DNA from: Phymorhynchus buccinoides
Taxonomy: Eukaryota > Mollusca > Gastropoda > Neogastropoda > Raphitomidae
Reading direction: 5' to 3'
Length of the DNA stretch: 64,000 nucleotides
Assembly (NCBI GenBank): GCA_017654935.2
Contig: CM065683.1
Location: 949,090-1,013,089 of the forward strand
Positions 5,776-60,860 of this stretch are shown in pieces. Each line of letters opens with the position of its first letter. Positions within the stretch are counted from its first letter, which is position 1. The notes under the pieces were generated by a model. The model did not search any database and was not told the origin of the DNA. It worked only from the letters and a program-made list of their open reading frames with translations. Position numbers and translations under genes: made by a program.

Positions 5776-8167
5776 TCACAACATTTAGGCACCTACTGTT
5801 CTCAAAGTGTCCTCAGGGGTCTGTCTTAGGCCCCATTCTGTTCACCCTCTTCACTCCATTCTGTTCACCCTCTTCACTCCATTCTGTTCACCCTCTTCAC
5901 TCCATTCTGTTCACCCTCTTCACTCCATTCTGTTCACCCTCTTCACCCCATTCTGTTCACCCTCTTCACTCCATTCTGTTCACCCTCTTCACTCCATTCT
6001 GTTCACCCTCTTCACCCCATTCTGTTCACCCTCTTCACTCCATTCTGTTCACCCTCTTCACTCCATTCTGTTCACCCTCTTCACTCCATTCTGTTCACCC
6101 TCTTCACTCCATTCTGTTCACCCTCTTCACTCCATTCTGTTCACCCTCTTCACCCCATTCTGTTCACCCTCTTCACTCCATTCTGTTCACCCTCTTCACT
6201 CCATTCTGTTCACCCTCTTCACTCCATTCTGTTCACCCTCTTCACCCCATTCTGTTCACCCTCTTCACCCCATTCTGTTCACCCTCTTCACTCCATTCTG
6301 TTCACCCTCTTCACTCCATTCTGTTCACCCTCTTCACCCCATTCTGTTCACCCTCTTCACTCCATTCTGTTCACCCTCTTCACTCCATTCTGTTCACCCT
6401 CTTCACCCCATTCTGTTCACCCTCTTCACTCCATTCTGTTCACCCTCTTCACTCCATTCTGTTCACCCTCTTCACTCCATTCTGTTCACCCTCTTCACTC
6501 CATTCTGTTCACCCTCTTCACTCCATTCTGTTCACCCTCTTCACTCCATTCTGTTCACCCTCTTCACTCCATTCTGTTCACCCTCTTCACTTCTGTTCAC
6601 CCTCTTCACTGTTCACCCTCTTCACTCCATTCTGTTCACCCTCTTCACTCCATTCTGTTCACCCTCTTCACCCCATTCTGTTCACCCTCTTCACCCCATT
6701 CTGTTCACCCTCTTCACTCCATTCTGTTCACCCTCTTCACTCCATTCTGTTCACCCTCTTCACTCCATTCTGTTCACCCTCTTCACCCCATTCTGTTCAC
6801 CCTCTTCACCCCATTCTGTTCACCCTCTTCACTCCATTCTGTTCACCTCTTCACTTCATTCTGTTCACATTTCTGTTCACCCTCTTCACTCCATTCTGTT
6901 CACCCTCTTCACTCCATTCTGTTCACCCTCTTCACTCCATTCTGTTCACCCTCTTCACTCCATTCTGTTCACCCTCTTCACTCCATTCTGTTCACCCTCT
7001 TCACTCCATTCTGTTCACCCTCTTCACTCCATTCTGTTCACCCTCTTCACTCCATTCTGTTCACTCTCTTCACTCCATTCTGTTCACCCTCTTCACTCCA
7101 TTCTGTTCACTCTCTTCACTCCATTCTGTTCACCCTCTTCACTCCATTCTGTTCACCCTCTTCACTCCATTCTGTTCACCCTCTTCACTCCATTCTGTTC
7201 ACCCTCTTCACTCCATTCTGTTCACCCTCTTCACTCCATTCTGTTCACTCTCTTCACTCAGCCAATTTCTTCTATCATCGAGGACCACAACCTGGCGTTT
7301 GAAAAATTTGCAGACGATACCGAAATACAGACAGGTGCTCCTCCTACAGACTTTCCTCTTATCTCTCAGAACATAACTTCTTGTATTGCTGATGTATAAA
7401 CCTGGATGAGTGAAAACAATTTAAAACTCGATGAAGATAAAACAGAACTCTTGGCTACTGCTGACTCTCTCCGATTAAAACGAGTAAAGAAAGAACCACT
7501 GTTCCTAGGCTCTAGTTCTGTCTCATTTAAGACCTCTGTCAAGTATCTCGGTGTTCGTCTTGATGAAACTCTGTCCATGGACTCTCAAATATCTTCTCTC
7601 TGTCGTACTTCCAACTTTCACTTGCGGCGGATTGCAGCAATCAGACCATATCTCTCAGAAGAAAGCACAGCTCACCTTGTTCGCTCACTGATTCTCTCTA
7701 GATTAGACTACTGTAACAGCATTCTTGCTGGTCTTCCTTCTTCATCTGTCTCTAGAATACAAAAAGTGCAAAACAATGCTGCTAGGCTCGTACTGCGAAA
7801 GAAAAAACGCGACCACATTACGCCTCTTCTCAAACAGCTACACTGGTTTCCTATCGCAGCACGTATCGAGTACAAGATGGCCACCCTAGCTTTCAAATTT
7901 CACAACGATTCTCTCCCTGCTTATCTTTCAAGTACGCTCTTGCCATATGTACCCTCTCGGTCTCTTCGCTCTAGCAGTCAAAACTTCCTAAAGATCCCAT
8001 ACTACGATCTAAAATCAGCTGGGCAGAGAGCCTTTCGCTTCCAGTGCGCAAAGGTGTGGAATAGTCTGCCCGACAGTCTTCGCAACAGCCCATCTATCCC
8101 TACTTTCAAGAAGAACCTGAAAACCTATCTCTTCAGAAAATCCTACTGCACTTCTTTTGTTGAGTGA
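5776..8167 (+). pseudogene. L2/CR1-like non-LTR retrotransposon RT pseudogene, palm interrupted by a minisatellite
   Basis: The left end enters the RT domain at CPQGSVLGPILFTLFT (about 5806-5860), the conserved palm motif of non-LTR reverse transcriptases. That sequence is then tandemly expanded to 7258. The RT resumes with FEKFADDTEIQ, the catalytic FADD box, at about 7300. A TAA at 7396-7398 interrupts the frame just before TWMSENNLKLDEDKTE. The C-terminal half (7406-8167) is open and carries KYLGVRLD, LSRLDYCNS and KVWNSLPDSLR motifs typical of L2-like elements. The fingers and endonuclease are missing. The element is truncated, has an internal nonsense codon and a ~1.4 kb repeat in its palm, so it is dead. 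Family level is confident, clade level moderate. Confidence 0.85.
5837..7258. repeat. 23-bp minisatellite derived from RT coding sequence (about 62 copies)
   Basis: The unit CATTCTGTTCACCCTCTTCACTC is exactly the sequence that encodes ILFTLFT in the RT palm box immediately upstream, so the array was born inside the retrotransposon. Because 23 is not a multiple of 3, translation cycles through all frames with a 69-bp (23-residue) period and stays open. Variants CACTCC and CACCCC are interspersed. Shortened units occur near 6590-6610 and 6846-6872. Confidence 0.93.
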
Positions 8168-10171: not shown

Positions 10172-10745
10172 GTGCACAGTGGTCTACTGATGGTCTGTGG
10201 TCAGGGTATCTCTCCCCACACCTCCTTCCACGATGTCAGGTTCAGCTGTCTGCCCAGCCGATGATCACCTCTCCACAATAGTCACTGCTATCTGTCATCT
10301 CTCCCCACACCTCCCTCCATGACATCAGGTTCAGCTGTCTGCCCAGCCGATGATCACCTCTCCACAATAGTCACTGCTATCTGTCATCTCTCCCCACACC
10401 TCCCTCCATGACATCAGGTTCAGCTGTCTGCCCAGCCGATGATCACCTCTCCACAATAGTCACTGCTATCTGTCATCTCTCCCCACACCTCCCTCCATGA
10501 CATCAGGTTCAGCTGTCTGCCCAGCCGATGATCACCTCTCCACAATAGTCACTGCTATCTGTCATCTCTCCCCACACCTCCCTCCATGACATCAGGTTCA
10601 GCTGTCTGCCCAGCCGATGATCACCTCTCCACAATAGTCACTGCTATCTGTCATCTCTCCCCACACCTCCCTCCATGACATCAGGTTCAGCTGTCTGCCC
10701 AGCCGATGATCACCTCTCCACAATAGTCACTGCTATCTGCCATCT
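10172..10745. repeat. 89-bp tandem repeat (about 6 copies)
   Basis: GATGATCACC recurs at 10260, 10349, 10438, 10527, 10616 and 10705, an exact 89-bp spacing. The first copy is diverged at its 5' end (10172-10230). The units contain ATCAG|GTTCAG, a donor-like site, but no coding function could be assigned. Confidence 0.92.
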
Positions 10746-10782
10746 CAACTCAAGCTCACTTTGCTTCCTCTGATTTTCTTTC

Positions 10783-18186: not shown

Positions 18187-19029
18187 CAGAATGTATTGTT
18201 GTCAATTGATATTGGCCATGTTTGTGATGTTACTTCAGTGGAGAATGTATTGTCAGTTGATATTAGCCATGTTTGTGATGTTACTTCAGTGGAGAATGTA
18301 TTGTCAGTTGATATTGGCCATGTTTGTGATGTTACTTCAGTGGAGAATGTATTGTCAGTTGATATTAGCCATGTTTGTGATGTTACTTCAGTGGAGAATG
18401 TATTGTCAGTTGATATTAGCCATGTTTGTGATGTTACTTCAGTGGAGAATGTATTGTCAGTTGATATTGGCCATGTTTGTGATGTTACTTCAGTGGAGAA
18501 TGTATTGTCAGTTGATATTGGCCATGTTTGTGATGTTACTTCAGTGGAGAATGTATTGTCAGTTGATATTAGCCATGTTTGTGATGTTACTTCAGTGGAG
18601 AATGTATTGTCAGTTGATATTAGCCATGTTTGTGATGTTACTTCAGTGGAGAATGTATTGTCAGTTGATATTAGCCATGTTTGTGATGTTACTTCAGTGG
18701 AGAATGTATTGTCAGTTGATATTAGCCATGTTTGTGATGTTACTTCAGTGGAGAATGTATTGTCAGTTGATATTAGCCATGTTTGTGATGTTACTTCAGT
18801 GGAGAATGTATTGTCAGTTGATATTAGCCATGTTTGTGATGTTACTTCAGTGGAGAATGTATTGTCAGTTGATATTAGCCATGTTTGTGATGTTACTTCA
18901 GTGGAGAATGTATTGTCAGTTGATATTAGCCATGTTTGTGATGTTACTTCAGTGGAGAATGTATTGTCAGTTGATATTAGCCATGTTTGTGATGTTACTT
19001 CAGTGGAGAATGTATTGTCAGTTGATATG
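18187..19029. repeat. 51-bp tandem array (about 16 copies), interrupted by an L2-like insertion
   Basis: Very homogeneous 51-bp unit (TTGATATTAGCCATGTTTGT, GATGTTACTTCAGTGGAG, AATGTATTGTCAG). The only common variant is TTAGCC/TTGGCC. Being 17 codons long without stops, it is open in several frames on both strands. Two further, more diverged units at 21323-21412 show that the retrotransposon 19030-21322 split the array. Confidence 0.93.
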
Positions 19030-19043
19030 GCCACACTCTGGAC

Positions 19044-20756
19044 TTGGTGATAGAAAGGCCCAGTGATGGAGTTCACCGATCCTCAGAGGTCAATCATGAC
19101 CTCGAGTCTGACCATGTTTGTGTTGTGAGTTTGTTTGACATAGAGCTCCCTGTCCACAAACACGTGTACCGCAGCGTCAGAAATATCCGCGCAATCGACA
19201 GAACTGTTTTCGGAAATGATATCAAAGTAGAATTATCTAAGTACACATCTAGTTCTTGTACTGCCGCTGAGTACGATAGTGCCCTTCGGTCAGTATTGGA
19301 CAAACATGCTCCTGTTTCTTCACGCAAAGTTTCTTCTAGCAGAGAATCAAGTCCTTGGTTTAGTGTGATGCCTAACGAAATAAAAGAAGCAGACATTATG
19401 GATCATAATGACTTGAAAAGTTATCGGCCTGTGTCCAACTTAGCGTTTGTCTCCAAAATAATCGAGAAAATTGTCCTTGCACAATTGTCTAACCATCTGT
19501 CAGCAAACAATTTGTTCAACCCCCTCCAGTCTGCCTATCGACCTGCTCACAGCACTGAAACAGCTCTGACTAAAGTTCTTAACGATCTCCTCTTAGCTCT
19601 TGACAATGGAAAAGTGTCAGTCTTGACTCTCCTAGATCTGTCGGCAGCATTTGATACAATAGATCACACCATTCTTCTATCCCGGCTGGAACGTGTTTTT
19701 GGAATCCATTCTACAGTTCTACAGTGGTTCTCCTCATATCTAACAAATCGCTTTCAGACTGTCTTGATCAACAACAGCAGTTCAGATCCGAAGTTAATTT
19801 CTTGTGGTGTACCTCAGGGATCTGTATTGGGGCCAGTTCTCTTTGTCCTGTACACTGCTCCTCTCTCTGATGTTTTTGCTAGTCACTCTGTTATTGACCA
19901 TTCCTTTGCTGATGATACCCAGCTTCAAAAATCGGCGGAACCTACCCAACTTGACAGCGCTATTCAGTCTATGGAATCCTGCCTTCATGATGTCAAATCC
20001 TGGATGACATGCAACAAATTAAAACTTAATGATGACAAAACGGAAGCTCTGATTGTTTCCTCTCAGCGTATGTCTGCAACTATATCTCTTCCAGAAACTC
20101 TTACAGTTGGCAATGCTTGTGTTCAGTTTTCTAAGTCAGCAAAGAATCTCGGAGTTACCCTCGATTCAAATCTTACAATGCATAAACAGGTTATTAATCT
20201 CATACGTTCCATCAATTATGAGCTCAGACGAATCAGTGCTGTTCGACACTTTCTGTCTGTTGCAGCCACGAAAACTCTTATTTCTGCCTTTATTCTTTCC
20301 CGCATTGACTATTGCAACTCTCTTCTCTGTGGCTGTCCTAAGTATCTCCTGCAACGTGTTCAAAAACTGCAAAACAGTGCAGCACGCCTCACTCTCAAGA
20401 TTCCACGTTCTGATCATATAACACCTCATCTTCGTAACTTGCACTGGCTTCCAGTAGAGGCTAGAATCAAGTATAAAATAGCTTGCCTTTGTTTCGGTGC
20501 TGTTCACTCCTCTGGTCCCGTCTATCTCTCCGAACTAGTAACTGTCTACTTACCTGCTCGCTCCCTACGTTCTTCCTCTGACTGCTGCACACTCAAGGTT
20601 CCTCGGGTCCACACGAAATCGTTTGGTGAACGATCTTTCTACTATTTAGCACCTCACTTATGGAATTCCCTCCCACAACATGTCCGCTCATCTGACTCTA
20701 TCTCCGCCTTTCGCTCTGCCCTTAAAACTCACTTGTTTCGGACATATTATGATTGA
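19044..20756 (+). CDS. L2-like reverse transcriptase, open but 5'-truncated and internally deleted
   Basis: One uninterrupted frame (570 codons from a first possible start; it also extends a little upstream). In order: endonuclease tail (SDHVCVVSL), linker, then a sudden join at about residue 115 to LKSYRPVSNLAFVSKIIEK. The usual long linker between endonuclease and RT is missing, so an internal deletion is inferred. The RT palm is complete: LLDLSAAFDTIDHT, GVPQGSVLGPVLFVLYT, and HSFADDTQLQ with the catalytic D-D pair. Then the thumb (KNLGVTLDSNLTMH), LSRIDYCNSLLCG, and the C-terminal HLWNSLPQHVR. The encoded enzyme would copy element RNA at a nicked target, but this copy lacks most of the endonuclease. 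Its open frame suggests recent insertion. Confidence 0.85.
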   Translation: MVIERPSDGVHRSSEVNHDLESDHVCVVSLFDIELPVHKHVYRSVRNIRAIDRTVFGNDIKVELSKYTSSSCTAAEYDSALRSVLDKHAPVSSRKVSSSRESSPWFSVMPNEIKEADIMDHNDLKSYRPVSNLAFVSKIIEKIVLAQLSNHLSANNLFNPLQSAYRPAHSTETALTKVLNDLLLALDNGKVSVLTLLDLSAAFDTIDHTILLSRLERVFGIHSTVLQWFSSYLTNRFQTVLINNSSSDPKLISCGVPQGSVLGPVLFVLYTAPLSDVFASHSVIDHSFADDTQLQKSAEPTQLDSAIQSMESCLHDVKSWMTCNKLKLNDDKTEALIVSSQRMSATISLPETLTVGNACVQFSKSAKNLGVTLDSNLTMHKQVINLIRSINYELRRISAVRHFLSVAATKTLISAFILSRIDYCNSLLCGCPKYLLQRVQKLQNSAARLTLKIPRSDHITPHLRNLHWLPVEARIKYKIACLCFGAVHSSGPVYLSELVTVYLPARSLRSSSDCCTLKVPRVHTKSFGERSFYYLAPHLWNSLPQHVRSSDSISAFRSALKTHLFRTYYD

Positions 20757-38796: not shown

Positions 38797-39328
38797 ATTG
38801 AATACAATAAAGCGAGGCTTACCTCGTAAGGTGATGCTGTTTGTAGATTCTTGCGAAGCAGTAATAACTGGAACGAGTGTACAGGCCCAACCCTTTTTGA
38901 ATGTTAATAGAAAGAAGGCACTACCTGCCAAGAACAAGAACTGTCACCCACCCAAGACACAGTGCACAACGTGCGAAACACAGAACACAGCAAATAAAGC
39001 ACACCAGGCGAAGGGACAACCATAATGGTGGATTATTTGTGTGTTACTTGACATAGTCCATCAGGTAGACCCCAAAACAGGGGCCTTCATTACACAATGC
39101 GGGGGAAGTCGTCAAATGCTTGACATATGTTGGGGCCCTTACCAGGAATATGGTAATGACAAACCCAAACACGATTGACTATGGGATGCAGTGTTCCTTC
39201 GCAGCAGCTTTCAATACTGGTTGGCCTGGCTGCAATATCTCCTGTACACTCGTTCCAGTTATTACTGCTTCGCAAGAATCTACAAACAGCATCACCTTAC
39301 GAGGTAAGCCTCGCTTTATTGTATTCAA
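38797..39328. repeat. Near-perfect ~88-bp inverted repeat pair with ~355-bp spacer
   Basis: 38797-38884 (TTGAATACAATAAAGCGAGG ...) and 39241-39328 (... CCTCGCTTTATTGTATTCAA) are reverse complements with no mismatch noticed. Similarity may extend inward (CCAACCC / GGTTGG). The RT fragment begins directly after the right arm. Candidates are a DNA-transposon TIR pair, a hairpin-producing locus, or a rearranged 5' end of the adjacent retroelement; none can be chosen from sequence alone. Confidence 0.85.
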
Positions 39329-39335
39329 TTATAGT

Positions 39336-40384
39336 GATGGACTTCGCCAAAGCCTTTGATAAAGTAAATCACAGCCTGTTCCTGCACAAGCTTCGCCATT
39401 ATAGTATCCAAGGAAAGCTCAACAAATGGATAGAAGACTTCCTCAGCAACAGAAGACAGGCGGTTGTTGTCAACGGTGTCAGATCCACCAGCATTGATGT
39501 TTGTTCGGGTGTGCCCTACGGATCAGTCCTTGGACTGTTCCTGTACCTTGCGTACATCAATGATTTGCCAGACAAGTTGGCATCACCAGCCCGTCTCTTT
39601 GCGGATGATACAGCCGTGTACAGAGTGGTAGCGGCGCCACAGGACCATGAACAGCTACAGCATGACCTCCATCAGCTTGCTGAGTGGGAGAACGGATCAA
39701 GCTGGGACATGGCATTCTATCCTGGCAAATGCACCACCTTACCTGTCACCAGGAAAAGGCACACGCAGGAAAGCCCGGTCGGTACGAACTTCATGGCCAC
39801 CAGCTTGAAGCTGTTGACTCTGTTAAATATCTAGGAGTAACCATCTCAAAGGATCTCAGCTGGAGAAAACATATCCAATCCATTTGCTCAAAGGCCAACA
39901 AGACCCTGTGGTTTTTTAAGAAGGAATCTGAAAATTAGCTCCCAGCCGTACAGTACGTGTACATGTGGGACCCTCACCAGCAGCAGGACATTGATAAGCT
40001 TGAGGCGGTACATCGACGAGCAGCAAGGTTTGAGAAGAGATGATTCAGAAACACACCAAGCGTCTCAGCTATATGATCGATCAGCTGAAGTGGCCATCCC
40101 TTCAACATCGCCGAGAAACAGCAAGACTTGAGCAATATGCTGTTCAGATTGCAGAAATATATTGTGTCAATGAAGAGGTTTTAATAAAAGAGAAACTCAC
40201 TCCGGCACCTGAACGCCAGCGTCGCGCCCACACCAAACAGCTGGCCCTCATCTTCTGCAAGACAAAGTACCGGCAGGCCAGCTTCCTACCCCGAACCATC
40301 AAAGCACGGAATGACCTCTCCCATCAGGCTGTTGAGGCAGAGACTCTGGACACCTTTGTGTCTAGGGCAACTGTCTCTCAATAA
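39336..40384 (+). pseudogene. Jockey/CR1-group non-LTR RT fragment, frameshifted
   Basis: Begins within the palm: MDFAKAFDKVNHSLFLHKLR, then VCSGVPYGSVLG (Q of the usual PQG is Y here) and RLFADDTAVYR with the catalytic D-D pair. After about 39760 the frame shifts to YELHGHQLEAVDSVKYLGVT then ISKDLSWRKHI. After the stop at 39936-39938 the match continues in pieces (DKLEAVHRRAARF), and from 40040 the tail region runs to a TAA at 40382. The endonuclease and fingers are missing. Several lesions make it a dead copy. Confidence 0.85.
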
Positions 40385-41073: not shown

Positions 41074-41480
41074 ATGTCTAGGGCAAATGTTTCAAATTCT
41101 TTTTTGTGTGTTCACTCTAAATCTGTCTTACCGTGGCTTACACTAAAATCCATAAAGTTTAGAGACAGATCGGACTTAATAATCGAAATTAATGATCTTA
41201 TTCATTTTCTCATTCAAAAAGGTTCTCGTGTAACCTCTGGGTTCCATCACATTGTGGTATTTATGGAAAATGAATGGGCAGACAGGGGATAAAAATCCTG
41301 ATCGCTTCTCGGCCTTTTGGCTAAGACAGTGATTCAGGAACATAAATTTTTGTTTATACCATGGTTGGTTGGTTCAGCCCGTTGTACATGGCGAAAGCCG
41401 ATACGCGACGTTAAACTGAACTTCCAGACAGGGGAGTAGCCAGAAGAGGTGCACGACATATATATAATTGGCTGTAAAAA
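41074..41480 (+). pseudogene. RNase H domain fragment of a non-LTR retrotransposon, split by a SINE
   Basis: The segment 41238-41289 reads WVPSHCGIYG and then, after a one-base frame change, NEWADRG: the C-terminal catalytic motif of RNase H as found in I/Jockey-type elements (His and the final Asp). The coding sequence resumes at 41425 as DRGVARRGA, so 41290-41424 is an insertion. Upstream frames (LIIEINDLIHFLIQKGSRVT) fit the preceding RNase H helix. No other domain of this element is recognised adjacent. Confidence 0.75.
41290..41424 (+). mobile_element. U2 snRNA-headed SINE with 11-bp target-site duplication
   Basis: Flanked by CAGACAGGGGA at 41279-41289 and 41425-41435, inside the RNase H frame. 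From 41301 the element matches the 5' end of U2 snRNA for 26 nt (ATCGCTTCTCGGCC ... CTAAGA to 41326). It then diverges into GTGATTCAGGAAC, an AT-rich body, GGTTGGTTGGTTCAGCCCG and a tail region GCGACGTTAAACTGAACTTC. The GACGTTAAA tail resembles 44954-44965, suggesting a shared 3' end with another retroelement. Eleven bases precede the U2-like start, so the true 5' end is uncertain. U2 identity is established knowledge; the SINE interpretation is an inference supported by the TSD. Confidence 0.75.
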
Positions 41481-41489
41481 TATTGATAT

Positions 41490-44400
41490 TCCTATATCTG
41501 TAAAGAAATGTTATACTCTTTTATAAGAAGACATCAAAACTCGAGTGGACTGTATGACAAAATATGCATAATGGGAGACTTTAACTTTCCAAACATAAAC
41601 TGGACGGGACAATGGTCCTCATCAAAGGATGAAGAGTTTGTGGATGCAACCAGGGATGCTTTTTTAGAACAAGTGGTGACTAGACCAACAAGAACAAGAG
41701 AAGGCCAGAAATAAAATATTTTAGACTTAATTTTTGTTAATGACATTGAGCTCGTCTCAGATGTTGAACATTTATGCCCTCTAGGGAAAAGTGATCACCA
41801 AGTTTTAAACTTTTTAATCTATATAAATGCAAACAAATTTGACAGTACACCCCAAGCACAGAACACAAATTTTAATTTTAAGAGAGCAAATTTTACTAAA
41901 ATGAAAGAATACTTCGCAAACGAAGAGTGGACACATTTTGAGGCTTTGGAGGTTGATGATTGCTGGCAGATTATTCGGGACAAAATTCACAAATCAATGG
42001 AAGAACATATTCCCAAAATTAAAAGGAACATGAAAAATAAAAAATATTCAAAAACATACTGGATGTCAATAGGACTTAGACAAAGTGTTAGAAAGAAATA
42101 TAGGTTTTACAAAAGATTTTTGGAAAACAACAAATCTAAGCAAGGTAAAAAATATCGAGAATATATAAAAGAAAGAGACAAGATCGAGTGGTAAGCAATT
42201 AAAAAGGGAGAGAAAAACTCATGAACGAAAAATAGCTGATAACTGTAAACAAAACCCTAAACTGTTCTGGAGGTACATTAATTCCAGATTGAAAATGAAC
42301 ACAGGGATTAGTCCACTTAAAGATAAAGATGGTAATCTTGTATGTGATGATGAGGGTAAAGCTAATATTTTAAACAACTACTTTTCTAGTGTATTTACTA
42401 GAGAAAACACAGACAATTTACCAAGTGTAAATTCTAAGGTGTCTCAGGCTCATAATTGTTCTGATATTCATGTTTTACAAGAACAGGTAAAACTGAAACT
42501 GAAGGAATTAGACCCCAACAAAGCCCAGGGCCCAGATAGAGTGCCAGCACTGATTTTGAAAGAACTGTCTGAGGAGCTGGCCCCACCTCTAACTATTTTA
42601 TTTAACAAATCCTTACAAACAGGTGAGCTGCCCGCAGACTGGAAAAAAGCTGAAGTAGCAGCTATCTTCAAAAAGGGTACAAAATCTGAACCAGGAAATT
42701 ACCGACCTGTAAGCCTCACGTGTATTATTTGCAAAATGTTTAGAACAATTTATTAGAGACACAGTTGTAGCCCACATGACAAATTTTAACCTGTATTCAG
42801 AATGTCAACATGGCTTTAGGACAGGAAGATATTGTATGACCCAGTTGACGGACGTCATGGACAATTTTACTAAATTTTTAGATGAAAAGGAAACTTTTGA
42901 TGTGGTATATTTAGATTTTCGCAAGGCTTTTGACTCCGTCCCACACGAACGATTGCTATTAAAGCTTCAGTCTTATGGTATAGATGGGAACATATTAAGA
43001 TGGATAGGAAATTTTCTTACGGGCAGAACACAAAAGGTACGAATAAATGGTAAATATTCTTCTGAAGCAGCAGTGTTGAGTGGCATTCCACAAGGTAGCA
43101 TCCTAGGCCCCATTCTGTTTACAATTTTCATTAACGATCTACCGGATCAAGTAGAAAGCATATGTAAACTTTTTGCGGACGATACCAAAATATACAATAC
43201 TTCAAAAAATTCTAAAACAATTCAACATGACATTGACAGACTAATAAACTGGACAGAGAAATGGAATTTGTATTTTAATGATAGTAAATGTAAGGTGATG
43301 CATTTAGGAAAGAATAATCCAAGTTGCAATTATGAAATTTCACATGGTACCGACAAACATATTTTAAAAACTTGCAAAGAGGAAAAGGATCTTGGAGTCA
43401 TCTTTGACTCTGGATTGACATTTGATAACTACATTAATACGGCTATTGGTAAAGGCAACAAAATGCTGGGCCTAATTAGAAGAAGTTTTATTGGGTTAGA
43501 TAATATAGTATTTTTAAAACTATATAAAAGTTTGGTCAGACCTCATCTAGAGTATGGAAATCAGGTCTGGAGTCCGTTTTTAAAAAGGCAATCGGCAGCA
43601 TTAGAAAGGGTCCAAAGACGAGCAACAAAATTGATTAAAGGCGTTAGTCACCTTGATTACGAACACAGACTAAGAAAGTTGAAATTACCATCTCTGAAAT
43701 ACAGAAGTATTCGTGGGGATCTGATAAATACATAAAAAAAATTTCACAGTGATAACAATACTAATAAATTTTTGTTCCAGCTAACAACTGACTCAAGAAC
43801 CCGTAACAGTGATTTAAAAATACTAACCCAGTATAGCCGAACTAATATTAGAAAAATGTTCTTTTCTAACAGAGTAACAAAGTTTTGGAATACTCTTCCT
43901 GCACATATTAAACGAGCACAGAATCTAACACAATTCAAAAACCTCCTTGGTGGATACACCAACATATCAAAACTACAATACGAGCATGACTGAAAGGCAG
44001 ATTTGCCGAAAACAAAATACAAAAACCTCTCAGCTGTGCAAAATGAGTTGACTGTTGACTGTTGTTGTTGTTGTGGGTTCACACGTGTGTGCATTACATC
44101 AAGAAGAAACACAGCTGACTCCAAGGATCATGTATATAGCACGTTTATTAAAACTACACAGTATAGAGGGTAATTAAGGAACACAGAGACAAAGGCTTGC
44201 TGTTGATAGCGTGTCTAGTAGAAGAGTGCAAGCAGGCAGAAAGGGAAGGGAAAGATAGCGTTGGTTGGTGCCAGACTGACCAATCGGGATGCGTGGCATG
44301 TGATGTACACGTGAAGAACATGAGTGATAGAGAAGGAAGAATAAGGTCAGCTAGTTATTCAGTAGTTGTTGCAACTATGGCTACACACCTATATTAATAA

Positions 44401-45265: not shown

Positions 45266-45678
45266 ATGACAATGGGGAACGAGCGGATCTTTTCAACCGT
45301 TAAACTGGTCTGGAGCCGTTACTGCTCGCAGACTATCAAACAACTGGCGATCAAAGACAAAGTCGTCACGCTGGCGTTCGGAACTGTCGGGAGGTGGCGA
45401 GCCCAACGCCTGGCGGAGAGTCTCAACAGCGGAGTGCAGAAGACCTGCTCCCTGTTCGTCAGACAGAGCTATGTCATCGCCGGGCAGCGGACGTGGCGAA
45501 CCTTCCAGCTGTTCTCCTGGTACCGGCAGCTGTACGGCGAGCAGCGCTTACTGCAGACGTTGCGAGCTAACCTTGCCCGCCATTGCCGCAACAAAAACAA
45601 GCAACTGGCCGCTCTGCTGTCCGCGGCTGGCATTTTCCAGTGGGAGAGGGATGGCGTCACTGAGGAAGAACTTGAGAA
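45266..45678 (+). CDS. STARD7: STARD7 exon 1: N-terminal region of StAR-related lipid transfer protein 7
   Basis: STARD7 carries phosphatidylcholine to mitochondria; this exon encodes the N-terminal part with the targeting region. The first in-frame ATG after the stop at 45200 is 45266 (a second is at 45272). The start has basic and hydrophobic residues (IFSTVKLVWSRYCSQTIKQL) consistent with an import signal. The conserved block FSWYRQLYGEQRLLQTL ... QLAALLSAAGIFQWERDG then TEEELEK matches the recalled vertebrate STARD7 pre-START region (ALAGVFVWDEE...EEELQ). The exon is 137 codons plus 2 nt and ends at a strong donor, GAGAA|GTAAGT. Phase 2 joins exon 2 to make EEELEKALKDMG. Partial copies of its 3' end lie in intron 1. 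Confidence 0.88.
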
Positions 45679-45722: not shown

Positions 45723-46215
45723 TAACTGGCTGCTCTGCTGTCCGCGGCTGGCATTTTCCAGTGGGAGAGGGATGGCGTTGTCCAGTGCAAATCTGTCTCT
45801 CGTGCAAATCTGTAGCTCACTACCTATGAGAGTCTGTATTTGCGGCATTTTGCGACATTGAGCATGAACCACAAATTTCACTTTTTTCTAGAGTTGGGGA
45901 TAGGGTTAGGCTTAGGTAAATAGTTCAAGTACAGAAAAAGTGAAATTTGTGGTTGTCGCAAATACAGACTCTCATACTAGCGAGCTACAGATTTGCACGC
46001 GACAGGCGTCACTGAGGAAGAACTTGAGAAGTAAGTGTTGGTAAAAAATATATTGAAATATCCTCAGTTATGCCTAACTGGCCGCTCTGCTGTCTGCGGC
46101 TGGCATTTTCTTCTTCTTCCCGTTGATCGGCCTCCTTCATCAAGTTGAAGGTCTTCCAGTGGGACAGTGGGAGTGACGCCCACTGTGGAAGAACTTGAGA
46201 AGTAAGTGTTGGGGA
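45723..46215 (+). repeat. Two partial duplicates of the STARD7 exon 1 3' end and donor site in intron 1
   Basis: The segment starting CTAACTGGCTGCTCTGCTGT and running through CATTTTCCAGTGGGAGAGGG to the donor GAACTTGAGAAGTAAGTG is repeated after the true exon. Copy 2 is 45723-45779 plus 46005-46070 (split by a MITE) and keeps CACTGAGGAAGAACTTGAGA plus AGTAAGTG. Copy 3 (46075-46212) has an insert after GCTGGCATTTTC but again ends GAACTTGAGAAGTAAGTG. Intron 1 thus holds two extra canonical donors. Confidence 0.85.
45780..46004. mobile_element. 225-bp MITE (TGTC...GACA) with 5-bp target-site duplication
   Basis: Long terminal arms are inverted: TCTCGTGCAAATCTGTAGCT on the left and TCGCGTGCAAATCTGTAGCT on the complement of the right, then GAGAGTCTGTATTTGCG and CCACAAATTTCAC. 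It is flanked by GGCGT (45775-45779 and 46005-46009). The uninterrupted site exists in exon 1 itself (GGATGGCGTCACTGAGG, about 45650-45665). Superfamily not assigned; no coding capacity. Confidence 0.8.
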
Positions 46216-46779: not shown

Positions 46780-48029
46780 CAGACACACGCCTACACCCAT
46801 TGATGATATTATCTATTGATCATTATTACTTTACAGAGCTCTCAAAGACATGGGCACCATGGAATGCCTAGTGAACCATGCAGTCATCAAACATGCGCCT
46901 ACATCCATTGATGATATTATCCATTGATCAAATTGTACAGAGCTCTGAAAGACATGGGTACCATGGAACGCCTAGTGGACCATGCAGTCAAGGCCCACAG
47001 CAGACACACGCCTACACCCATTGATGATGATATCCATTGATCATTATTACTGTACAGAGCTCTGAAAGACATGGGCACCATGGAACGCCTGGTGGAGCAC
47101 GCAGTCAGCAGACACACGCCTACACCCATTGATGATGATATCCATTGATCATTATTACTGTACAGAGCTCTGAAAGACATGGGCACCATGGAACGCCTAG
47201 TGGAGCACGCAGTCATCAGACACACGCCTACACCCATTGATGATATTATCCATTGATCATTATTACTGTACAGAGCTCTGAAAGACATGGGCACCATGGA
47301 ACGCCTAGTGGAGCACGCAGTCAGCAGACACACGCTTACACCCATTGATGATATTATCCATTGATCATTATTACTGTATAGAGCTCTGAAAGACATGGGC
47401 ACCATGGAACGCCTAATGGAGCATGCAGTCAGCAGACACACGCCTACACCCATTGATGATGATATCCATTGATCATTATTACTGTACAGAGCTCTGAAAG
47501 ACATGGGCACCATGGAACGCCTAGTGGAGCACGCAGTCAGCAGACACACGCTTACACCCATTGATGATATTATCCATTGATCATTAATACTGTACAGAGC
47601 TCTGAAAGACATGGGCACCATGGAACGCCTAGTGGAGCACGCAGTCAGCAGACACACGCTTACACCCATTGATGATATTATCCATTGATCATTATTACTG
47701 TACAGAGCTCTGAAAGACATGGGCACCATGGAACGCCTGGTGGAGCACGCAGTCAGCAGACACACGCCTACACCCATGGATGATATTATCCATTGATCAT
47801 TATTACTGTACAGAGCTCTGAAAGACATGGGCACCATGGAACGCCTAGTGGAGCACGCAGTCATCAGACACACACCTACACCCATTGATGATATTATCCA
47901 TTGATCATTAATACTGTACAGAGCTCTGAAAGACATGGGCACCATGGAACGCCTAGTGCAGCACGCAGTCAGCAGACACACGCTTACACCCATTGATGAT
48001 ATTATCCATTGATCATTAATACTGTACAG
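46780..48029 (+). repeat. ~108-bp array made of the intron 1 3' end plus the start of STARD7 exon 2 (about 12 copies)
   Basis: Each unit contains CATTATTACTGTACAG|AGCTCTGAAAGACATGGGCA and CCATGGAACGCCTAGTGGA..CA.GCAGTC, that is, a splice acceptor followed by about 50 nt of exon 2 sequence, then CAGACACACGCCTACACCCA and TTGATGATATTATCCATTG. AGCTCTGAAAGACATGGGC occurs at 46937, 47058, 47165, 47274 and on at about 108-bp steps until the genuine exon at 48030. The unit at about 46934-47010 also keeps AAGGCCCACAGCAGACACAC, as in the real exon. Reading from a decoy acceptor meets a stop in the CATTGATC segment, so only the last acceptor supports the full protein. The 415-codon minus-strand frame across it is a periodicity artefact. 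Confidence 0.93.
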
Positions 48030-48193
48030 AGCTCTGAAAGACATGGGCACCATGGAACGCCTAGTGGACCATGCAGTCAAGGCCCACAGCAGACACACCC
48101 CGGCGCCTGACGGCTGGCAGATCGTCATCGACAGACCCCACCTCAAGGTCTGGCGCCGCTTCATGGACGACCTTCAACTGTACGAGTACAGAG
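48030..48193 (+). CDS. STARD7: STARD7 exon 2: start of the START lipid-binding domain
   Basis: The acceptor TACTGTACAG precedes 48030. The exon begins in phase 2 and reads ALKDMGTMERLVDHAVKAHS, then GWQIVIDRPHLKVWRRFMDD and LQLYEYR. The W-x-x-V-x-D-x-x-H-x-K-x-W-R-R ... L-Y-x-Y-R pattern is the beginning of the START domain as in vertebrate STARD7 (WEMVMDKKHFKLWRR...LYQYR). It ends TACAGAG|GTCAGT in phase 1. The linker before the Trp is shorter than I recall for human STARD7. The exon's first ~50-70 nt are the source of the tandem array immediately upstream. Confidence 0.9.
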
Positions 48194-52955: not shown

Positions 52956-52978
52956 CAGGGTTAGGGTTAGGGTTAGGG
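52956..52978. repeat. Short interstitial telomere-like tract (TTAGGG)3
   Basis: AGGGTTAGGGTTAGGGTTAG GG. It is short and intronic, so not a telomere. Confidence 0.7.
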
Positions 52979-53105
52979 CCACCCCGTTGCAGGATTTTTG
53001 AAATTTCCCAGGATCACCCATGTACTGTAAGATCAAGTTAAAAGGCCAGCAACAACAACACTCTTGAGAAATTATGTGTATCGACCAGAAACCTGAAACT
53101 AAGCT

Positions 53106-53646
53106 ATGTCAGTGTTTGATGTTTGTGTTGTAGTGTATGGGTTAGTGACAGCTATGTCAGTGTTTGATGTTTGTGTTGTAGTGTATGGGTCAGTGACAGC
53201 TATGTCAGTGTTTGATGTTTGTGTTGTAGTGTATGGGTTAGTGACAGCTATGTCAGTGTTTGATGTTTGTGTTGTAGTGTATGGGTTAGTGACAGCTATG
53301 TCAGTGTTTGATGTTTGTGTTGTAGTGTATGGGTTAGTGACAGCTATGTCAGTGTTTGATGTTTGTGTTGTAGTGTATGGGTTAGTGACAGCTATGTCAG
53401 TGTTTGATGTTTGTGTTGTTGCAGTGTATGGGTTAGTGACAGCTATGTCAGTGTTTGATGTTTGTGTTGTAGTGTATGGGTTAGTGACAGCTATGTCAGT
53501 GTTTGATGTTTGTGTTGTAGTGTATGGGTTAGTGACAGCTATGTCAGTGTTTGATGTTTGTGTTGTTGCAGTGTATGGGTTAGTGACAGCTATGTCAGTG
53601 TTTGATGTTTGTGTTGTAGTGTATGGGTCAGTGACAGCTATGTCAG
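53106..53646 (+). repeat. 48/51-bp array derived from the STARD7 exon 3 acceptor (first block, about 11 copies)
   Basis: Unit GTGTATGGGTTAGTGACAGC TATGTCAGTGTTTGATGTTT GTGTTGTA is 48 bp; a few units have GTTGTTGCA (51 bp) and so restore the TTGCAG acceptor. It is the same family as 56150-60587, most units here having lost the AG-bearing GTTGCAG (GTTGTAGTG instead). Confidence 0.92.
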
Positions 53647-54299
53647 TGTCACGAAATCCCCCGCTCGATCCTGATCAGAGATCGGGAGAGGGAAATCGCG
53701 AACCCCGAGGAGAGTCTCGCACGCCCAGACAGACAAACTCGCAGGAGAAGGCACACGCGCACACCAGAAGTACAATACAAAACAAGACTATTTATTATAA
53801 AGTGTAGCACACACACACACTTACACAATTCAATACACTCAATGTTCAACAAATTATCTACACAATTTACATGGCATTCAAAAGTTTGTCCAAAGAATAA
53901 ACTAAAGCCGGCAACTTAACTGAATAACTAAAAGAGAGTTTGTAAGCAGAAACACAAAATTGAAGGGAAAACGCTACGATTGACGCGAAAGGGCAGACGA
54001 AGAAAAGAAGTCCAACAAAACAGCAGAGCGTCTGAAGAAGAAGACAAAAGGGGAAAACAAAAGTCAGTAGAAAAACTGCTCCCCCTCCTGGGGCAGGCTA
54101 CAGCAGCAGAAACAAAAGAAGAGAGACGGCAGAGGTCGCCCACAGACTCCTCAACAGGAACGTCGAAGCCTGGCCCGAACGCACAGACAGGCCCACAGAT
54201 CGGGCCTAACACGGGGCCAGACAGAAAGGCGGGCGGCCTCCCACAGCCGGAAACGGAGAAAAGAGCGTGTTTGACCGGGCGGTCAGCCAGGCAGCAACA

Positions 54300-54372
54300 G
54301 GTCAGGTCAGGTTCAGGCTCAGGCTCAGGCTCAGGCTCAGGATCAGGATCAGGATCAGGATCAGGATCAGGA
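54300..54372. repeat. (TCAGGC)n(TCAGGA)n microsatellite
   Basis: Hexamer repeat that translates as a Gly-Ser run. No other coding support. Confidence 0.9.
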
Positions 54373-54419
54373 CTGTATGAAAAACCAAAACAAAAACCTA
54401 GTTTTGAACTCCCAGAGTA

Positions 54420-55800
54420 ACAACAGTTTTGTGTTTACCCAAAAACTAATTCCCCAACAGTCCTCTTCAGGGATGTAAAAACCCACCCTCTTTAAACTTG
54501 GTTCTCTCCAAGAACCCCAAAACGCTGAAAAACACTTTCTTTACAATCCTTTTCACACGACTCAGTCTAGGGGTAATATTTCATCAAAAAGGATTAACTA
54601 AAAGGTTTCACTTTTTCTGGAACAACAAGGCTTTCATACATTTAGAAAATTCTAGCCTTTCAAATACAAAAATTAACAATTACATTCTTCTGAAAATTTC
54701 ACAGCTTTTCAGGTACAAGAATGGACACTTAAATTCTTCTGAAAATATCACATAGAACTTCACCACCAAAAATATGTCCCTTCATTATCATTTCTTCCAG
54801 AAGGCGGACGAACTACAGGCAAAGAATGTATTTCCCCAAAATGGCATTCACAATGTACTTCAAAAGGTCAAAAAGCCTTGAAAACACTAATTACACTTTC
54901 TCTCATGTAAAATAAAAACAGAAACGGGGATGAACGCTTTACAAAGCTCCTATCAGCATAGCTAGAAGCGCGACTGGAATAACCCTCTGTTATCCAGCTC
55001 TCCGCAGAGTCTCTTAATACCTAATTAAGCTAGGACGATGACCGCGAGGCTAAACATAGGTCGCGAGGCTAAACATATACCGCAATAAGGAATAATGCGC
55101 GCGCGTGCACGCATTTAGGATTCTGAATCTCTGTGAACTCAAATACGCTTTGCACCGAAAAACGATTTGTTTGTGGCCTAAACACACAATGGCGAGCCAA
55201 AACATTGATTCAAAAATATGTGCCGAGTTCAAGTACCAAATTCTACAACCGGCAAAAACCTATCCAACTGACAAGTCATGACCCAGCCAGTCATGTTCCT
55301 TAGCCCCTTATGCAAAAATCAAGAAAATAATAAGAAAAATGAACCAAAGAAAACGCACACAAATATACATGTTAGCAAACCTATAACTAGCTATTCTACA
55401 TTGTTACGCGCGCGTTGTTGTACGAGTTTTAACGTATGATTAATACTAATTTTATGCAGCTACTGACCAAACTTCCAGCTATGGCGGAATGAAGAAGAAG
55501 AATCCTCCCCACAAGACAGTCGCAGCTCTGGTCTCGCCAAGGGCTCGGTGTAAGCGCGAGCAGGTGGAAGGGGTTCCGGACCGGCCACAGCTTTCTTCCA
55601 GGACTCCAGTGAACGCCAGGGACGATGACGGGGAAGGGAAAACGATGAGAAACCAAATAAAAAGGGGGTGAAGATGGCGATGAGGATGAAGAGGAGAAAG
55701 TGTTTGATGTCAGCCGAAGCTCTACAGCTTCGCTATCCCCACGTCTAGGACTCGTGCAGGATAAACAATTGATAACAGGATCAGCTTCAGGGACGTGGCC
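54420..55800. other. Central part of the 2.5 kb insertion, no gene seen
   Basis: AT-rich to mixed sequence with only short random frames. Confidence 0.45.
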
Positions 55801-56149
55801 CTCAGTGTATGGGTCAGCACTGGGCGTTTGATGTAGGTGGACAGAACGATGAAAAGTCAGAAAGGATGAAGCGATGAAGCGATGTTGCTGTAACTGAGTG
55901 AGCTAAAAATATGGAGTGACGTTTGACCGGTGTAAAACTCATGAAGTCGCCAGTTGAATGTGGAGTCTCGCGAGAGGTCAGAGCTCACACGGGTTTGCAC
56001 GGATTTCACACAGTAGGTTGTCTCCTTTAGGTTAGTGGAGAAAGATGTCGGGGTCCTTTGCGATGTTTGAGTGGTAGTGTGTGCCTTTGACAGCTCTGTC
56101 TGTTTGTTCAGTGTATGGGTTAGTGACAGCTATGTCACAAACTCGTGAC

Positions 56150-59100
56150 AGCTATGTCAGTGTTTGATGTTTGAGTTGTTGCAGTGTATGGGTTAGTGAC
56201 AGCTATGTCAGTGTTTGATGTTTGTGTTGTTGCAGTGTATGGGTTAGTGACAGCTATGTTAGTGTTTGATGTTTGTGTTGTTGCAGTGTATGGGTTAGTG
56301 ACAGCTATGTCAGTGTTTGATGTTTGTGTTGTTGCAGTGTATGGGTTAGTGACAGCTATGTCAGTGTTTGATGTTTGTGTTGTTGCAGTGTATGGGTTAG
56401 TGACAGCTATGTCAGTGTTTGATGTTTGTGTTGTAGTGTATGGGTTAGTGACAGCTATGTCAGTGTTTGATGTTTGAGTTGTTGCAGTGTATGGGTTAGT
56501 GACAGCTATGTCAGTGTTTGATGTTTGTGTTGTTGCAGTGTATGGGTTAGTGACAGCTATGTTAGTGTTTGATGTTTGTGTTGTAGTGTATGGGTTAGTG
56601 ACAGCTATGTCAGTGTTTGATGTTTGTGTTGTTGCAGTGTATGGGTTAGTGACAGCTATGTCAGTGTTTGATGTTTGTGTTGTTGCAGTGTATGGGTTAG
56701 TGACAGCTATGTCAGTGTTTGATGTTTGTGTTGTTGCAGTGTATGGGTTAGTGACAGCTATGTCAGTGTTTGATGTTTGTGTTGTTGCAGTGTATGGGTT
56801 AGTGACAGCTATGTTAGTGTTTGATGTTTGTGTTGTAGTGTATGGGTTAGTGACAGCTATGTCAGTGTTTGATGTTTGTGTTGTTGCAGTGTATGGGTTA
56901 GTGACAGCTATGTCAGTGTTTGATGTTTGTGTTGTTGCAGTGTATGGGTTAGTGACAGCTATGTCAGTGTTTGATGTTTGTGTTGTTGCAGTGTATGGGT
57001 TAGTGACAGCTATGTCAGTGTTTGATGTTTGTGTTGTTGCAGTGTATGGGTTAGTGACAGCTATGTTAGTGTTTGATGTTTGTGTTGTAGTGTATGGGTC
57101 AGTGACAGCTATGTCAGTGTTTGATGTTTGAGTTGTTGCAGTGTATGGGTTAGTGACAGCTATGTCAGTGTTTGATGTTTGTGTTGTAGTGTATGGGTCA
57201 GTGACAGCTATGTCAGTGTTTGATGTTTGTGTTGTTGCAGTGTATGGGTTAGTGACAGCTATGTCAGTGTTTGATGTTTGTGTTGTTGCAGTGTATGGGT
57301 TAGTGACAGCTATGTCAGTGTTTGATGTTTGTGTTGTTGCAGTGTATGGGTTAGTGACAGCTATGTCAGTGTTTGATGTTTGAGTTGTTGCAGTGTATGG
57401 GTTAGTGACAGCTATGTCAGTGTTTGATGTTTGTGTTGTTGCAGTGTATGGGTTAGTGACAGCTATGTCAGTGTTTGATGTTTGTGTTGTTGCAGTGTAT
57501 GGGTTAGTGACAGCTATGTCAGTGTTTGATGTTTGTGTTGTTGCAGTGTATGGGTTAGTGACAGCTATGTCAGTGTTTGATGTTTGTGTTGTTGCAGTGT
57601 ATGGGTTAGTGACAGCTATGTCAGTGTTTGATGTTTGTGTTGTTGCAGTGTATGGGTTAGTGACAGCTATGTCAGTGTTTGATGTTTGTGTTGTTGCAGT
57701 GTATGGGTTAGTGACAGCTATGTCAGTGTTTGATGTTTGTGTTGTTGCAGTGTATGGGTTAGTGACAGCTATGTTAGTGTTTGATGTTTGTGTTGTTGCA
57801 GTGTATGGGTTAGTGACAGCTATGTCAGTGTTTGATGTTTGTGTTGTTGCAGTGTATGGGTTAGTGACAGCTATGTCAGTGTTTGATGTTTGTGTTGTTG
57901 CAGTGTATGGGTTAGTGACAGCTATGTCAGTGTTTGATGTTTGTGTTGTTGCAGTGTATGGGTTAGTGACAGCTATGTCAGTGTTTGATGTTTGTGTTGT
58001 TGCAGTGTATGGATCGTTCAGTGACAGCTATGTCAGTGTTTGATGTTTGTGTTGTTGCAGTGTATGGATTAGTGACAGCTATGTCAGTGTTTGATGTTTG
58101 AGTTGTTGCAGTGTATGGATCGTTCAGTGACAGCTATGTTAGTGTTTGATGTTTGTGTTGTTGCTGACAGCTATGTCAGTGTTTGATGTTTGTGTTGTTG
58201 CAGTGACAGCTATGTCAGTGTTTGATTGTGTTGTTGCAGTGTATGGGTTAGTGACAGCTATGTCAGCATTTGATGTTAGTGTTCTTGCAGTGTATGGGTT
58301 AGTGACAGCTATGTCAGTGTTTGTGTTGTTGTAGTGTATGGGTTAGTGACAGCTATGTCAGTGTTTGATGTTTGTGTTGTTGCAGTGTATGGGTTAGTGA
58401 CAGCTATGTCAGTGTTTGATGTTTGTGTTGTTGTAGTGTATGGGTTAGTGACAGCTATGTCAGTGTTTGATGTTTGTGTTGTTGCAGTGTATGGGTTAGT
58501 GACAGCTATGTCAGTGTTTGATGTTTGTGTTGTTGCAGTGTATGGGTTAGTGACAGCTATGTCAGTGTTTGATGTTTGTGTTGTTGCAGTGTATGGGTTA
58601 GTGACAGCTATGTCAGTGTTTGATGTTTGTGTTGTTGCAGTGTATGGGTTAGTGACAGCTATGTCAGTGTTTGATGTTTGTGTTGTTGCAGTGTATGGGT
58701 TAGTGACAGCTATGTCAGTGTTTGATGTTTGTGTTGTTGTAGTGTATGGGTTAGTGACAGCTATGTCAGTGTTTGATGTTTGTGTTGTTGCAGTGTATGG
58801 ATCGTTCAGTGACAGCTATGTCAGTGTTTGATGTTTGTGTTGTTGCAGTGTATGGATCGTTCAGTGACAGCTATGTTAGTGTTTGATGTTTGTGTTGTTG
58901 CTGACAGCTATGTCAGTGTTTGATGTTTGTGTTGTTGCAGTGTATGGATCGTTCAGTGACAGCTATGTCAGTGTTTGATGTTTGTGTTGTTGCAGTGAAA
59001 GCTATGTCAGTGTTTGATTGTGTTGTTGCAGTGTATGGGTTAGTGACAGCTATGTCAGCATTTGATGTTAGTGTTGTTGCAGTGTATGGGTTAGTGACAG

Positions 59101-59815
59101 CTATGTCAGTGTTTGATGTTTGTGTTGTTGCAGTGTATGGATCGTTCAGTGACAGCTATGTCAGTGTTTGATGTTTGTGTTGTTGCAGTGTATGGATCGT
59201 TCAGTGACAGCTATGTTAGTGTTTGATGTTTGTGTTGTTGCAGTGTATGGATCGTTCAGTGACAGCTATGTCAGTGTTTGATGTTTGTGTTGTTGCAGTG
59301 TATGGATCGTTCAGTGACAGCTATGTCAGTGTTTGATGTTTGTGTTGTTGCAGTGTATGGGTTAGTGACAGCTATGTCAGTGTTTGATGTTTGTGTTGTT
59401 GCAGTGTATGGATTTGTTAGTGACAGCTATGTCAGTGTTTGATGTTTGTGTTGTTGCAGTGTATGGGTTAGTGACAGCTATGTCAGTGTTTGATGTTTGT
59501 GTTGTTGCAGTGTATGGGTTAGTGACAGCTATGTCAGTGTTTGATGTTTGTGTTGTTGCAGTGTATGGGTTAGTGACAGCTATGTCAGTGTTTGATGTTT
59601 GTGTTGTTGCAGTGTATGGGTTAGTGACAGCTATGTCAGTGTTTGATGTTTGTGTTGTTGCAGTGTATGGGTTAGTGACAGCTATGTCAGTGTTTGATGT
59701 TTGTGTTGTTGCAGTGTATGGGTTAGTGACAGCTATGTCAGTGTTTGATGTTTGTGTTGTTGCAGTGTATGGGTTAGTGACAGCTATGTCAGTGTTTGAT
59801 GTTTGTGTTGTTGCA
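56150..59815 (+). repeat. 51-bp array derived from the intron 2 acceptor and STARD7 exon 3 start (second block, about 70 copies)
   Basis: The unit is TTGATGTTTGTGTTGTTGCA|G-TGTATGGGTTAGTGACAGCTATGTCAGTG (joined as one 51-bp period). TTGTTGCAG|TGTATGG equals the true acceptor and first bases of exon 3 (60579-60594). From about 58010, some units carry GGATCGTTCAGTGAC instead of GGGTTAGTGAC, identical to exon 3. If joined to exon 2, the repeat frame (VYGLVTAMSVFDVCVVA, 17 residues) is in phase with the gene and open over long runs (for example 57393-58040), broken by units with TTTGAGTTG or by the 56-bp units. Confidence 0.94.
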
Positions 59816-60587
59816 GTGTATGGATCGTTCAGTTTGATGTTTGTGTTGTTGCAGTGTATGGATCGTTCAGTTTGATGTTTGTGTTGTTGCAGTGTATGGA
59901 TCGTTCAGTTAGATGTTTGTGTTGTTGCAGTGTATGGATCGTTCAGTTAAATGTTTGTGTTGTTGCAGTGTATGGATCGTTCAGTTAAATGTTTGTGTTG
60001 TTGCAGTGTATGGATCGTTCAGTTAGATGTTTGTGTTGTTGCAGTGTATGGATCGTTCAGTTAGATGTTTGTGTTGTTGCAGTGTATGGATCGTTCAGTT
60101 AGATGTTTGTGTTGTTGCAGTGTATGGATCGTTCAGTTAGTTTGTGTTGTTGCAGTGTATGGATCGTTCAGTTAGATGTTTGTGTTGTTGCAGTGTATGG
60201 ATCGTTCAGTTAGATGTTTGTGTTGTTGCAGTGTATGGATCGTTCAGTTTGATGTTTGTGTTGTTGCAGTGTATGGATCGTTCAGTTAGATGTTTGTGTT
60301 GTTGCAGTGTATGGATCGTTCAGTTAGATGTTTGTGTTGTTGCAGTGTATGGATCGTTCAGTTAGATTAGTGTTGTGTTGTTGCAGTGTATGGATCGTTC
60401 AGTTAGATGTTTGTGTTGTTGCAGTGTATGGATCGTTCAGTTAGATGTTTGTGTTGTTGCAGTGTATGGATCGTTCAGTTAAATTGCAGTGTTTGTGTTC
60501 AGTTGTTGCAGTGTATGGATCGTTCAGTTAGATGTTTGTGTTGTTGCAGTGTATGGATCGTTCAGTTAGATGTTTGTGTTGTTGCAG
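59816..60587 (+). repeat. 38-bp array nearest to STARD7 exon 3 (about 20 copies)
   Basis: The unit TGTATGGATCGTTCAGTTAG plus ATGTTTGTGTTGTTGCAG is a shortened form of the 51-bp unit in which the exon-like part is exactly the first 17 nt of exon 3. Each has a TTGTTGCAG acceptor. Read from exon 2, a decoy unit gives VYGSFS then a stop (TTCAGTTAG), so use of a decoy would truncate the protein. Some units have GTTTGATG or GTTAAATG. Confidence 0.94.
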
Positions 60588-60637
60588 TGTATGGATCGTT
60601 CAGTGACATCACTCCCAGGGCCTTTTACAACACTCAG
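60588..60637 (+). CDS. STARD7: STARD7 exon 3: START domain continuation
   Basis: A 50-nt exon between TTGTTGCAG and CAG|GTGAGA. With the G left over from exon 2 it reads VYGSFSDITPRAFYNTQ, matching the vertebrate STARD7 segment VFGTYTDVTPRQFFNVQ recalled from memory. It ends in phase 0, as expected before the L-D-x-x-Y-R-K-x-W-D exon, which is not found in the remaining 3.3 kb of the window. Its first 17 nt and acceptor are the source of about 100 upstream repeats. Confidence 0.9.
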
Positions 60638-60860
60638 GTGAGAGGCAGTAAGATAATAAATTATCAATAATACCATATTTTTCAGACTATAAGTATAACT
60701 ACAAGTAGTAGTAGTAGTGGAATAGGACTAGAAGTGGGCCTCGTGGCCCTTTTACACCGTGGCCCTTTTACACCCTTTCTTGATTGTTTAGTTTGATTTT
60801 TCACAATGATTGCGCTAACCTAAGCTAAACTAATCTTAATTTATAATTTTTTGGGAATGG
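60638..60860 (+). other. Start of STARD7 intron 3
   Basis: Donor GTGAGA at 60638. Contains ACCATATTTTTCAGACTATA AG at about 60672, a diverged copy of the motif repeated at 61500-62820, and (AGT)n near 60703. Confidence 0.6.

Follow-up and report, generated by a model that had tools for sequence, protein, structure and literature searches.

How is a splice acceptor recognized when it stands at the end of a row of about a hundred copies of itself, and by what process does such a row come into being? Both questions are raised by a stretch of 64,000 nucleotides of contig CM065683.1 (hereafter the window; coordinates are counted from its first letter), in which the 3' splice site in front of the third exon of a STARD7-like gene is repeated in tandem together with the first bases of that exon. 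Our preferred answer to the second question, to which we give a probability of roughly four in five, is that the array is passive, the product of ordinary minisatellite growth that happened to straddle an exon edge. It would be of the kind named 'mirages', which are minisatellite-like duplications of intron–exon boundaries in amphioxus genes (PMC3087553, PMC3902484).

The STARD7-like gene

Three exons of the gene were recognized, all on the + strand, as are the arrays at its exons: the coding part of exon 1 at 45272–45678 (donor GAA/GTAAGT, the slash marking the splice site), the true copy of exon 2 at 48030–48193 (donor GAG/GTCAGT) and exon 3, of 50 nt, at 60588–60637 (donor CAG/GTGAGA). By consensus count the three true donors reach 7, 7 and 8 out of 9, and a second in-frame ATG lies at 45266, 6 nt 5' of the coding start of exon 1. 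When joined, the exons give an open frame of 207 codons. In a two-sequence comparison with human STARD7, 50 of 164 columns were identical (E 1e-27), and the alignment runs unbroken through the exon 2–exon 3 junction, where LYEYRVYGSFSDITPRAFYNTQ faces LYQYRVFGTYTDVTPRQFFNVQ of the human protein. Phosphatidylcholine transfer protein (PC-TP), a START protein, gave a weak match spanning the same junction (E 0.088), and a Pfam search of the N-terminal part encoded by exons 1–3 found neither a START match nor any family above cut-off. Exon 4 was not found within the 64-kb window. Judging by the alignment across the junction, the gene is STARD7, as the earlier note on this DNA had proposed, and the acceptor lies where that note had placed it.

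Anatomy of the exon 3 acceptor array

In the interval 53000–60700 the sequence AG/TGTATGG occurs 102 times, the last occurrence being the true acceptor at 60588 and the other 101 being decoys, which agrees with the roughly 100 tandem acceptor copies, decoys in character, first reported. The unit spans TTGTTGCAG/TGTATGG, that is, the border of intron 2 and exon 3, and the 16-mer TTGTTGCAGTGTATGG occurs 82 times in the window as compared with 0.00 times in 100 shuffles. Counted over 104 segments, a number that takes in exon 3 itself and the 2.6-kb gap as one segment each, the unit lengths are 51 bp in 54, 38 bp in 17, 48 bp in 13, 55 bp in eight and other values in 12. The body of exon 3, GACATCACTCCCAGGGCC, has a single + strand occurrence, at 60605, which puts the authentic copy at one end of the array.

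What had been described as one array over 53106–60637 proved to be split into two blocks, 53102–53649 and 56145–60604, separated by some 2.5 kb of other sequence. The far block (53102–53649) consists mostly of 48-bp units and has 11 AG/TGTATGG sites. On the exon side, units of 51, 48 and 55 bp, with 69 such sites, fill 56145–59823, and the 38-bp block follows at 59824–60587. The non-array insert at 53650–56144, to which no strand is assigned, carries two degenerate AG/TGTATGG copies (55806 and 56112); within the window it matches only array-like pieces near its own right end (about 56062–56137), and a search for inverted repeats of at least 14 nt in the insert found one pair only and none at its ends.

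The AG is kept at all 102 sites (83 GCAG, 17 GTAG and 2 TCAG), contrary to the claim that most 48-bp units had lost it; what changed in the far block is the base before it, GTGTTGTAG standing in place of TTGTTGCAG at nine of the 11 sites (CAG to TAG). Four array units, at 58165, 58204, 58902 and 58996, lack TGTATGG. Units close to the exon do copy it exactly: over its first 17 nt no difference is seen in the 21 units (counting the true one) that lie within 800 nt of it. The copied part can, contrary to what had been stated, exceed 17 nt, since in the 55-bp units 34 intronic nucleotides are followed by 21 of exon 3. At 58006–59100 the order of unit types resembles a higher-order duplication within the array, for which blastn gave 91% in the best register versus 90% in shifted registers. 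A telomere-like short repeat, GGGTTA, was observed at 52958–52978, just 5' of the array.

Predicted outcome of decoy splicing

Joining any of the 101 exon 3 decoys to exons 1 and 2 leads to a stop codon that precedes the end of exon 3 by 50 nt or more, the median distance from decoy to stop being 140 nt. The same outcome is predicted for all 11 decoys of exon 2 and for both decoy donors of exon 1, described below. As every decoy meets a premature stop, productive splicing is possible at the terminal copy only. An immediate stop had been expected from the 38-bp units, and this was found, after 20 nt, for 17 of the 20 decoys at 59817–60550; the other three run on for 59, 134 and 134 nt. The 51-bp unit had been thought to stay in the STARD7 frame. 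Its length is indeed a multiple of three, but no decoy remains open to the end of exon 3, and a protein-extending role of these in-frame units was rejected because each decoy encounters a stop.

We infer from these sequences that the true acceptor is the one mostly used. Most decoys would be ignored through exon definition, the array blocks having no strong donor-like partner to offer them: no donor-like site scoring at least 7 of 9 was found in either block, on a scan that is a plain consensus count. For the same reason pseudo-exons inside the array blocks were considered and thought unlikely, although four such sites are present in the intervening insert.

Growth of the array

At its left edge the array opens with (A)GCTATGTCAG, which corresponds to the −34 (intronic) edge of the 55-bp unit. 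The founder may have been a unit of this form, its 55 bp divided into 34 nt of intronic and 21 nt of exonic sequence, born by a chance tandem duplication across the intron 2/exon 3 border. Slippage or unequal exchange would then have multiplied it, in a part of the genome rich in array growth. Shortened variants would have been amplified next, probably in the order 51 bp, 48 bp and, beside the exon, 38 bp. By eye, the 51-bp form has lost four bases in its exonic part relative to the 55-bp form, the 48-bp form shows a further change before the AG (TTGC to T), and 17 bases are missing from the 38-bp form.

Growth outward from the exon boundary, which the earlier note had read from the array, is borne out by part of the data. 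The exonic 17 nt become less like exon 3 with growing distance from it (Spearman rho 0.60, n = 102 units), but the distance of whole units to the inferred 55-bp founder follows the opposite trend along the array (rho −0.28), because the nearest block is made of the shortened 38-bp form. The working acceptor itself bears the TTAGATG variant of the 38-bp block, so it appears that turnover or exchange among the units has extended to the working splice site. Only the exon-side copy is joined to the rest of exon 3, and purifying selection should keep it, while the other copies would be left to drift and homogenise.

Arrays at other exon borders

Features of the same sort that go beyond the earlier note are an array at exon 2, three donors at exon 1 and arrays over coding ends of a CERK-like gene. 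The exon 2 acceptor array (46780–48079) is built of 108-bp units, except for one of 117 bp and one of 104 bp, which cover the acceptor together with the beginning of exon 2 and supply 12 acceptor copies, the last of them true. The decoy unit closest to exon 2 in sequence stands second when counted from the far end (46941, the 117-bp unit), with 1 difference in 69 nt, and the remaining ten show 11 to 15 differences over the same length. Strictly outward growth as a general rule was therefore rejected, as this array does not show such an order. A 9-bp direct repeat, CAGACACAC, present in both intron and exon, marks the end of the exon 2 unit, which suggests that the unit was born by duplication between the two occurrences. 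Downstream of exon 1, two extra copies of its end, with the donor GAGAA/GTAAGTGTTGG, lie at 46005–46212 as decoy donors (cuts after 46030 and 46201), making three copies of the donor region in total.

Upstream of STARD7, one piece resembles the end of human CERK (ceramide kinase), with 26.2 bits as compared with at most 18.9 bits in 200 shuffles; Pfam gave no family above cut-off for this piece. At 27–930 a complete CERK-like exon, along with its splice sites, is repeated in an array of 101-bp units with many G runs (seven exact copies), and an 89-bp array of about six copies at 10208–10746 runs over the stop codon and the last coding bases of the gene. The recurrence of the same structure at exons 1 and 2 and at the CERK-like exons argues for a general process.

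Exon borders do not appear to be special in this respect. Arrays of at least 100 bp occupy 55.7% of the window and are spread along its whole length, also far from recognised exons. Four of eight splice sites fall within arrays, where circular shifts yield 4.45 on average and 67% of the shifts reach four; hence there is no sign that exon borders attract arrays, and a preference of array birth for them was rejected, on the small sample of eight splice sites. This suggests that exon borders in such a genome are hit in proportion to array cover.

Weighing the passive reading and its alternatives

Several observations weigh against the reading of the array as a passive minisatellite with an otherwise ordinary acceptor at its end. 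Local sequence gives the true acceptor no advantage over the decoys: 71 of the 101 decoys are identical to it over −15..+3, and 11, which lie in the 38-bp block, over the whole of −38..+16. When branch points and acceptors were scored across the units, a check that had been proposed earlier, the branch-site pattern yUnAy was found at −45..−15 in 84 of the 102 acceptors and was absent from 17 decoys and from the true one. By the same donor count, the two array blocks contain many 6-of-9 sites (132 and 23), and with the four 7-of-9 sites of the insert the 11 far decoys might pair. Seven acceptors, the true one and six decoys, would give an exon of at most 300 nt, and exon definition alone therefore does not exclude these six; they might be excluded by something else, or be used at times and lost by nonsense-mediated decay. 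The enrichment test, for its part, rested on eight splice sites of which two belong to a CERK-like exon noticed through its array, and the exon 1 donor copies, which form no Tandem Repeats Finder (TRF) array, were scored as outside; if counted, the figure becomes five of eight.

These points bear on an alternative in which the decoys regulate STARD7. More than 100 near-identical acceptors would then form a length-tunable off-switch, in which decoys compete with the true site, the choice of a decoy inserts a premature stop and leads to nonsense-mediated decay, and a change in copy number adjusts STARD7 output. If so, yUnAy, present in most decoys (84 of 101) and missing at the true site, would bias the competition between acceptors. 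That every decoy meets its stop 50 nt or more short of the exon 3 end, and that many decoys equal the true site locally, fits this. Yet it can be reasoned that an exon extended into intron will usually run into a stop, such an outcome then being expected without any function, and like structures are found at exons 1 and 2 and in the neighbouring gene. For amphioxus mirages, moreover, reverse transcription PCR is said to suggest that regular splicing is undisturbed (PMC3087553, PMC3902484). We consider a regulatory role improbable.

Slightly less probable again is an assembly artefact that accounts for all or most of the array's length. Units this similar are hard to assemble, and an earlier amphioxus draft is said to have been misassembled at one such locus (PMC3087553), but the unit types here lie in separate blocks with single variants scattered among them, other sequence stands inside the array, and the window is without N. 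The exact copy number of the exon 3 array is uncertain. The weakest alternative, that this STARD7 copy is a pseudogene with unconstrained splice sites, could appeal to the finding of only three exons within the window, and is opposed by the open frame aligning across the junctions with human STARD7, by the scores of the true donors and by the presence of introns, which means that the copy is not a retrocopy.

Passive growth at an exon edge remains the preferred reading, and the locus offers a natural test of splice-site choice. As 11 decoys equal the true acceptor over −38..+16, what marks the working acceptor must lie outside that stretch.

Other features of the window

At 5833–7259, 62 copies of a 23-bp unit lie inside a frame that by eye resembles the reverse transcriptase of a long interspersed nuclear element (LINE). 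The resemblance is to a reverse-transcriptase motif, and Pfam found no match in the flanking frames; such a position would make the array one more instance of growth in arbitrary sequence. Three RVT_1 frames of LINE-like elements are present at 19026–20753, 42713–43732 and 39160–39831, and a unit like 18199–19028 recurs, by eye, after the first of them. The stretch 41300–41330 resembles the 5' end of U2 small nuclear RNA, with no Rfam match at gathering score. Scans of the window with Rfam (gathering threshold) and for tRNA gave 0 matches, as did one pattern scan of viral contigs.

Comparison with known systems

The ATTTC repeat expanded in familial adult myoclonic epilepsy 2 (FAME2) is not known to lie at a splice site. 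That expansion is likewise a tandem repeat in an intron of STARD7, in human (PMC6820779), but its unit is a pentanucleotide; we regard the shared gene as a coincidence and see no further link. Another comparison is with the human IFI6 gene (6-16/G1P3), whose minisatellite carries multiple splice donors (Turri 1995, cited in PMC4526556) and whose repeat copies are used in alternative transcripts (PMC4526556). In both genes the minisatellite unit bears a splice site of its host; in contrast to the donors of IFI6, whose copies are used, the exon 3 units of STARD7 are acceptors and each decoy leads to a stop. In human genes of segmental duplications, exon–intron boundaries carry variable internal tandem repeats that are reported to switch on cryptic splice sites and have been considered as a possible origin of new introns (PMC2812944). 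The STARD7 minisatellite also sits at such a boundary, but the human repeats average four of 30 bp, whereas the exon 3 array has 102 acceptors.

The closest likeness is with the amphioxus mirages, described in Adh3, the globins BflGb6 and BflGb9, PGBD5 and troponin C (PMC3087553, PMC3902484; the PGBD5 case was added, and troponin C cited, in PMC3902484). The earlier note had called the choice of acceptor, and a possible regulation by the decoys, an open and unusual question. A like structure had already been described in amphioxus, and the choice of the terminal copy remains the question. As in amphioxus, the tandem units of STARD7 span an exon–intron border, the authentic copy stands at the end of its cluster (exon 3, and exon 2 as the last of 12) and the splice signal is kept, with AG at every TGTATGG site. 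Unlike those cases, in which unit numbers are 6 and 3 in the BflGb6 haplotypes and 2 to 7 in PGBD5 (PMC3087553, PMC3902484), STARD7 has 102 acceptors for exon 3 and 12 for exon 2, in addition to donor copies. Intron gain by tandem genomic duplication (Rogers model) has been proposed as an outcome of mirages (PMC3087553), and in STARD7 the tandem duplication does cross a splice signal; however, no new intron is seen, and the exon 3 units, with many 6-of-9 sites, have no donor of at least 7 of 9.

On these sequence comparisons, the STARD7 arrays are of the known mirage kind, at a copy number far higher than in the cited amphioxus cases. Boundary-spanning minisatellites can evidently grow to a hundred copies and leave the first three exons of their gene open and, if the host is not a lancelet, mirage-like clusters would be more widespread than in the papers cited.
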